Of a stretch of 64,000 nt of DNA, positions 16,301 to 41,926 are shown in pieces (position 1 is the stretch's first letter; each line of letters opens with the position of its first letter). The stretch is from Branchiostoma floridae (lineage: Eukaryota; Chordata; Leptocardii; Amphioxiformes; Branchiostomatidae). Under the pieces are notes generated by a model. It did not search any database. It saw only the letters and a list, made by a program, of their open reading frames with translations, and had not been told where the DNA came from. The stretch is taken from the NCBI RefSeq assembly GCF_000003815.2, contig NC_049980.1:2601460-2665459 (forward strand). Reading direction: 5' to 3'. Made by a program: the position numbers and the translations under genes.

Positions 16301-16827
16301 ATGAGTGCTACCGATAAGGCAGGCGGTGTGGATAAGGCAGACGTTGCTTCCGCCTCTGTTGTCACCGCGGCGTCGTTTACGTCGAGTGACGGCGACGACG
16401 AGGGTCTTGGGACGACGACGTATAGCGTCAGCACGTCGTCAGACGTGGAAAGCACGGCGAGCAGCTCCACCGTGACCGAGGTGCGACATAAGCGGTACGT
16501 GGTGACCAGCTCCTCGGGACGACTGTCGAGCGTCCCCGCCGACCCAGGTCCCGAACCCCCCACCTTCCCCACCACCGACATCGTGTCGCTGAACGCCCGC
16601 TTCATGTACTACGTGGACCGCGTGCGTTTCCTGGAGCAGGAGAACCGTACCCTGCGCCACAGCGTGACGGAGCTGGAGGTCAGGTCTGTGTCCCCGGAGA
16701 TGTACCGAACCTTCCAGCAGGAGATAGACAGGGGGCGGCAGAAGGTGGCGGACCTGGGCGCAGAGAGGGCGCATCTACAGGTGGAGGTACAGAGGCTGGA
16801 GAGGGAGATGCGCGAATTCAACCACAA
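16301..16827 (+). CDS. IF-KASH exon 1: head, coil 1A and start of coil 1B
   Basis: The ATG has a good context (GTCGCCATGA). The first ~93 residues are a Ser/Thr-rich head with VRHKRYVVTSSSGRLSSVP near the end. Then comes the helix-initiation motif LNARFMYYVDRVRFLEQEN, very close to the conserved IF motif LNDRFASYIDKVRFLEQQN. The coiled coil continues to LEREMREFNH. The donor (CAA/GTGAGA) leaves phase 2. Known lamin and type III IF genes also end exon 1 inside coil 1B in phase 2, so the boundary looks ancestral. Confidence 0.9.

Positions 16828-41926: not shown

Follow-up and report, generated by a model that had tools for sequence, protein, structure and literature searches.

Gene structure at the locus

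The window, that is, the whole stretch of 64,000 nucleotides that was analysed, contains one plus-strand Branchiostoma floridae gene at positions 16301–41926. In its product, a rod of the intermediate-filament (IF) kind is followed by a tail of Ser/Thr-rich repeats, a single transmembrane (TM) helix, and a KASH peptide ending in PPPI (Table 1). Three landmarks that an earlier sequence-only reading of this DNA had claimed on the plus strand are all located there, namely the helix-initiation motif LNARFMYYVDRVRFLEQEN at 16589, the rod end EYEKLMHMKLDLEL at 31740, and the terminus PPPI with its stop codon at 41912.

The exons coincide with a public B. floridae predicted protein of 1376 residues (P0002), named 'serine-rich adhesin for platelets-like'. 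The translation of exon 1 is identical to its residues 1–175 (175/175), and the 15 other translated window exons are identical to its residues 197–1376 (1180/1180). Between exon 3, which starts at 27980, and exon 16, which closes with the stop codon at 41926, all exon junctions possess GT/AG borders and a matching phase, and over this part the phase-consistent model proposed earlier holds. It fails between exon 1, whose donor at 16827 is in phase 2, and exon 3, whose start is in phase 0; one exon is therefore missing between them. Public relatives supply this exon 2 as a 61-nt exon, the size being deduced from P0002, where it encodes residues 176–196. Translation of the 64-kb window in six frames does not reveal the exon-2 peptide of P0002. 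Furthermore, the intron at 16828–27979 was scanned for coiled-coil-like exons with splice sites; the best 30 candidates all have lower scores than the known exons, and the exon-2 peptide is not among them. Three N gaps exist in the window, at 22676–22775 (100 bases), 24184–24283 (100 bases), and 26930–27714 (785 bases); the missing exon probably sits in one of them, the last being the likeliest. The single break in phase consistency is thus probably due to an assembly gap.

The exon borders 31707, 32118, 35790, and 40991, proposed from the letters of the DNA, are all used by P0002. Two further proposals hold in part. The donor at 35257 is phase-consistent, but P0002 takes an internal donor at 32302. 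Likewise, the border at 40991 is real in the proposed step to a last exon ending at 41926, but the small exon 41390–41457 lies between, and the KASH exon begins at 41638. One other small exon at 38690–38746 fits the phases but is absent from both P0002 and a second model (P0001), and it was dropped. In addition, a 28-bp minisatellite at 30384–31702 fills the intron up to the acceptor of exon 6, so that length variation beside this rod exon is possible.

Table 1. Features of the rod–KASH gene, with positions in the window
Feature	Positions	Strand	Evidence and remarks
Exon 1: start codon, Ser/Thr-rich head, coil 1A, start of coil 1B; donor phase 2	16301..16827	+	Pfam Filament E=2.6e-15, profile 5–90; 175/175 against P0002
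Assembly gap (N), likely home of the 61-nt exon 2	26930..27714	.	Predicted placement, preferred over the gaps at 22676 and 24184
Exon 3, 96 nt, phase 0 to 0, coil 1B	27980..28075	+	Exact in P0002; length and phases as human desmin exon 3 (PMC3535371)
Exon 4, 66 nt, rod	28551..28616	+	Exact in P0002; missing in B. belcheri P0005
Exon 4b, 72 nt, apparently alternative	29707..29778	+	Exact in P0002; not in P0001
Exon 5, 102 nt, coil 2	30060..30161	+	Exact in P0002; with exon 6, Filament profile 240–298, below cut-off
Exon 6, 119 nt, rod end EYEKLMHMKLDLELAL, donor phase 2	31707..31825	+	Exact in P0002
Exon 7, short form: post-rod segment with WSPS, STPKGTPIRRR, NLS-like KKRK	32118..32302	+	Exact in P0002
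Exon 7 extension (whole exon 32118–35257): low-complexity tail, GPKRVLLSSGEY-type units, three listed	32303..35257	+	Open and phase-consistent; unused in P0002
Exon 8: tail of ~36-residue repeats, consensus near EDRPGLSGPKRVLTASGEYVVATSSEEQTTTT	35790..37231	+	Exact in P0002
Exon 9, tail	37744..37899	+	Phases; exact in P0002
Exon 10, tail	38272..38550	+	Phases; exact in P0002
Exon 11, tail	38959..39150	+	Phases; exact in P0002
Exon 12, tail, homologous to exon 14 (SGW.RF..RQS ... WGKS.RRENT)	39442..39618	+	Exact in P0002; shuffle test
Exon 13, tail	40037..40141	+	Exact in P0002
Exon 14, tail, duplicate of exon 12	40797..40991	+	Exact in P0002; shuffle test
Exon 15, 68 nt, phase 0 to 2	41390..41457	+	Phases; exact in P0002
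Exon 16: stalk, single TM helix, predicted luminal KASH peptide SCHLQNSFRQSWRFMLRHRSPPPI, stop codon	41638..41926	+	Pfam KASH E=2.3e-7; exact in P0002

Related models in lancelets

The full-length model was searched against 5.8 billion proteins, of which the 7986 best candidates were scored, covering lengths of ~1285–4090 residues. This gave at least five matches; the five listed are Branchiostoma proteins annotated with Filament as well as KASH in the precomputed Pfam column. The rod alone (3963 candidates scored, ~757–2408 residues) returns seven matches, again all from Branchiostoma; five of the seven carry both domains, and three are new. A search for short forms (best 7992 scored, ~229–728 residues) yields at least five vertebrate keratin-type proteins, none with KASH in the Pfam column. 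Such searches reach only proteins sharing exact five-residue words, and ordinary lancelet IFs and lamins did not surface; hence, these results do not imply that the protein is absent outside lancelets.

Eight distinct Branchiostoma proteins were found, all of them predicted gene models. Filament and KASH occur together in six of the eight, on five different contigs, in line with the earlier proposal that both domains belong to one protein. The six comprise models from B. floridae, B. lanceolatum, and B. belcheri, together with two hybrid records. Below, P0003 and P0007 denote B. lanceolatum models, P0005 and P0006 B. belcheri models, P0004 a hybrid record, and P0001 a hybrid record with B. japonicum. 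The two models without a KASH match differ from each other, as P0007 stops before the KASH exons and P0006 retains the last 19 residues but has no TM helix; either KASH-less isoforms or faulty annotation may account for them. The public names of these proteins ('serine-rich adhesin for platelets-like', 'mucin-19-like', and 'GFAP') hide the gene, and the present finding would correct them.

Conservation is distributed unevenly along the chain. Compared with P0003, P0005, and P0004, respectively, P0002 is identical at 77, 78, and 78 of 84 positions in the exon-1 rod, at 29, 30, and 29 of 32 in exon 3, at 32, 33, and 33 of 34 in exon 5, and at 35, 36, and 35 of 39 in exon 6, while the TM helix and KASH peptide share 60/63 in each comparison. 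Against the same three models, the identical positions number 70–72 of 92 in the head, 50–52 of 62 in the post-rod segment, and 340, 327, and 341 of 481 in exon 8. Further along the tail, identities amount to 29, 21, and 23 of 52 in exon 9, 33–39 of 59 in exon 12, and 45–48 of 65 in exon 14; exons 10 and 11 are without a good counterpart in these models, and exon 13 reaches 9/35 at best. P0001 is nearly identical to P0002 throughout. Such conserved distant ends, joined by a fast-changing middle, form the pattern that would be expected of a tether.

The intermediate-filament rod

A head of ~92 residues precedes the rod. Exon 1 alone exceeds the curated cut-off of the Pfam Filament profile (PF00038). 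The exons starting at 27980, 28551, 30060, and 31707 jointly match the same profile with E=8.5e-12 and 45.8 bits against a cut-off of 40, and the rod completed with exon 2 borrowed from P0002 reaches E=3.8e-29 and 102.7 bits. A Filament match is present in 5/5 proteins scanned with Pfam; in P0003 and P0007, it is recognised over profile positions 5–142 only. Other coiled-coil families give weak Pfam matches, all under their cut-offs. In P0001, the heptad core positions are mostly hydrophobic, with the lowest windows at 121–148 (3/8) and 205–232 (4/8), as raw counts.

A typical IF rod contains ~310 residues and closes with a TYRKLLEGEE-type end. In B. floridae, KHHGLEY occupies the position of this end, and no full-length rod with such an end is found. 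When the B. floridae rod parts are searched apart, the N-terminal part covers profile positions 5–163 (74.2 bits), and the C-terminal part covers 240–298 of 313 (24.1 bits, below the cut-off), so that ~75 positions in the middle of the profile (163–240) and the last 15 are unmatched. The span from LNARF to LELAL measures 193–239 residues in six of the eight models, with values of 215 or 239 in those resembling B. floridae, and 309 residues in both B. lanceolatum models, where the greater length arises from insert exons. By eye, residues ~229–345 of the two B. lanceolatum models consist of a Gly/Pro-rich insert and extra exon-4b-like copies (IDILG.KGELQQYITGSE), so exon duplication may determine how long the rod is.

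'Filament-type coiled coil', the wording of the sequence-only reading, is therefore a fair description, but it does not imply filament formation: the B. floridae rod is short and its end is divergent, which makes self-assembly doubtful. It is a genuine but altered IF rod.

The post-rod segment and the repeat tail

The motif KKRK follows the rod, behind WSPS, in 8/8 proteins. It resembles a nuclear localisation signal (NLS) and stands directly after the rod, as the NLS of lamins does, and it is regarded here as a putative signal.

The tail is built largely from repeats. A 108-bp tandem repeat occupies 36080–36907 in exon 8, and a counterpart of the long exon 7 is visible by eye in P0003 from B. 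lanceolatum. The alignment score between exons 12 and 14 is reached by 0/500 shuffles; among the 15 exon pairs tested, this pair and part of exon 10 with exon 12 pass. Two Pfam matches in the tail exceed their cut-offs, Inhibitor_I66 in exon 8 and TruB_C in P0005 and P0006. In neither case does a single stretch pass, and both were rejected as repeat artefacts.

The transmembrane helix and the KASH peptide

The last exon matches the Pfam KASH profile (PF10541) with 31.5 bits, the curated cut-off being 23, so both profiles, Filament and KASH, recognise the model above their curated cut-offs. Three of the five proteins scanned (P0002, P0003, and P0005) likewise contain KASH above the cut-off; P0006 and P0007 do not. 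Within the 1376 residues of P0002, one hydrophobic stretch exceeds the threshold (19-residue windows starting at 1309–1330), and none exists near the N terminus, which points to a tail-anchored topology. The single C-terminal TM helix is followed by a short predicted luminal tail ending in SPPPI, in agreement with the PPPX end of KASH proteins.

The closest solved KASH peptide is that of nesprin-3 (E=0.0039), followed by nesprin-1 (0.1 and 0.23). From the cysteine to PPP, the lancelet peptide aligns without a gap to the nesprin-3 peptide of 6WME. This cysteine, earlier described as well placed, is situated at −22, close to the position of about −23 that is characteristic of KASH proteins. At the kink position, the peptide has a phenylalanine and not the proline that marks KASH1/2; a proline kink separates KASH1/2 from KASH3–5 (PMC10719071). 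Furthermore, a histidine replaces tyrosine at the aligned KASH position −7, and this tyrosine is needed in nematodes (PMC10719071). According to the same paper, a SUN–KASH disulfide has been shown for KASH1/2, and the SUN2/KASH3 structure it describes has none although KASH3 possesses the cysteine (PMC10719071); a disulfide in the lancelet protein is therefore uncertain. The last four residues of nesprin-3 are required for SUN binding (PMC6886330), and SUN proteins are widespread in eukaryotes (PMC5630835).

Comparison with known systems and origin

Nesprin-3 is the nesprin that links the nucleus to IFs, through plectin (PMC6886330). The lancelet protein resembles nesprin-3 (SYNE3) in its tail-anchored KASH domain, in having it as the closest solved KASH peptide, and in the missing proline kink. 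However, nesprin-3 contains spectrin repeats and binds IFs indirectly via plectin, whereas the lancelet protein carries an IF-derived rod in the same chain. As had been claimed from the sequence, Pfam detects no spectrin domain, either in the pieces of the window or among the five scanned proteins, and identity as a nesprin was rejected because no spectrin repeats precede the KASH domain.

With cytoplasmic type II/III IFs (keratin, desmin, and vimentin), the protein shares the helix-initiation motif, the Filament domain, the exon phases, and the 61- and 96-nt exons. In contrast to these IFs, it has a shortened coil 2 (in B. floridae), a divergent rod end, a long repeat tail, a TM helix, and a KASH peptide. 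Lamins are similar in the IF rod, the post-rod KKRK, and the nuclear-envelope theme. Unlike lamins, the lancelet protein lacks a lamin-tail domain and a CaaX end, its exon sizes differ, and its anchor is a TM–KASH tail; identity as a lamin was rejected for want of the Ig-like lamin tail and CaaX. Cytotardin, a lamin-derived cytoplasmic IF protein of tardigrades, is comparable as a lineage-specific membrane-associated IF protein; it differs in being aligned with the plasma membrane, and KASH is unmentioned in the main text of that paper (PMC4829535).

The exon plan bears on the origin of the gene. The rod exons follow phases 2,0,...,2; exon 2 has 61 nt, as deduced from P0002, exon 3 has 96 nt, and exons 4–6 are shorter than type III sizes. 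Desmin exon 2 has 61 nt, and lamin exons measure 157, 126, 171, 126, and 221. The plan fits a chordate cytoplasmic IF gene and not a lamin gene, partly on sizes taken from general background. Desmin exon 3 comprises c.640–735, that is, Asp214–Glu245 or 32 codons (PMC3535371). In the likeliest history, a chordate-type cytoplasmic IF gene would have gained a TM–KASH tail, and coil 2 would have changed later. An IF gene would thereby have taken up a nuclear-envelope anchor.

Proposed role and alternative readings

The IF rod and the KASH domain are each known; the new element is their union in one chain. Among the matches listed from the open-licence literature, no title or abstract opening describes an IF–KASH protein. 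The locus probably represents a single lancelet gene whose product is a tail-anchored LINC adaptor, its cytoplasmic coiled coil being derived from an IF; for this protein, we infer nuclear-envelope localisation, SUN binding, and filament binding. In the proposed mechanism, the protein would be inserted post-translationally in the outer nuclear membrane, its rod and tail facing the cytoplasm, and the KASH peptide would span the perinuclear space and bind a SUN trimer, placing the PPPI end in the SUN pocket. Simultaneously, the rod would dimerise and dock on the cytoplasmic IF network or become part of it, and the tail would act as a long flexible spacer with its length set by splicing. A single molecule would connect SUN with IFs, and neither spectrin repeats nor a plakin adaptor would be involved.

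A more specific version is put forward tentatively: an IF protein with an acquired KASH tail would co-assemble with cytoplasmic IFs via its own rod and pull on SUN without nesprin-3 or plectin, and KKRK, if it works, would direct a soluble KASH-less splice form to the nucleus, so that one IF gene would serve both faces of the envelope. A described KASH–IF route runs through the spectrin-repeat protein nesprin-3 and plectin (PMC6886330). With rod and KASH in one chain, the IF–nucleus link could be direct, and force experiments could make use of a LINC adaptor that occurs naturally as one chain.

Alternatively, the rod may be merely a dimerising coiled coil that has lost contact with filaments, the repeat tail tethering other cargo. 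The shortened B. floridae rod with its lost end, the LNARF-to-LELAL span that varies over 193–309 residues across the eight models, and the long repeat tail with duplicated exons would all suit this reading. However, the rod exons are among the best-conserved parts across species and the helix-initiation motif is clear, and such a loss is considered rather doubtful.

An inner nuclear membrane protein is unlikely. Here, the lamin-like NLS would carry the protein through the pore, the rod would lie in the nucleoplasm by the lamina, and KASH would meet SUN in the same membrane. The KKRK shared by 8/8 proteins, in the layout found in lamins, agrees with such a route, and lamin A/C is the second-best solved-structure match, after vimentin. 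Against it, exons of 61 and 96 nt are the sizes expected of a cytoplasmic type III gene and not of a lamin gene, and KASH proteins typically reside in the outer nuclear membrane. Moreover, Pfam scans of the window pieces and five proteins reveal no lamin-tail domain, and the KASH forms end in PPPI with no CaaX.

It is highly improbable that gene prediction falsely fused adjacent IF and KASH genes: every model is a prediction and P0007 ends ahead of the KASH exons, but the joined form recurs in six of eight models on five different contigs, related repeat units are common to exons 7 and 8, the phases agree at each junction from exon 3 to exon 16, and both ends are conserved together. Accordingly, two separate genes, or a lack of rod–KASH linkage in lancelets, which the sequence-only reading had named as grounds against itself, are contradicted by the public, predicted gene models.

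Neighbouring features in the window

Upstream of the gene, the minus strand contains a leucine-rich-repeat open frame at 4522–5652 with an LRRNT-like cap (LRR_8, E=1.8e-49), probably a neighbour gene, and a tRNA match at 14256–14327 (Rfam RF00005, 72 bits). Downstream, two minus-strand regions at 55282–56364 and 58152–58589 harbour an open frame rich in Thr that matches ZP-N weakly (5.6e-5, narrowly missing the cut-off), together with an F5/8 type C match (3.9e-9), and both are possibly pieces of genes for extracellular proteins. A satellite-like array of ~16 copies of a 193-bp unit extends from 60813 to the window end at 64000.
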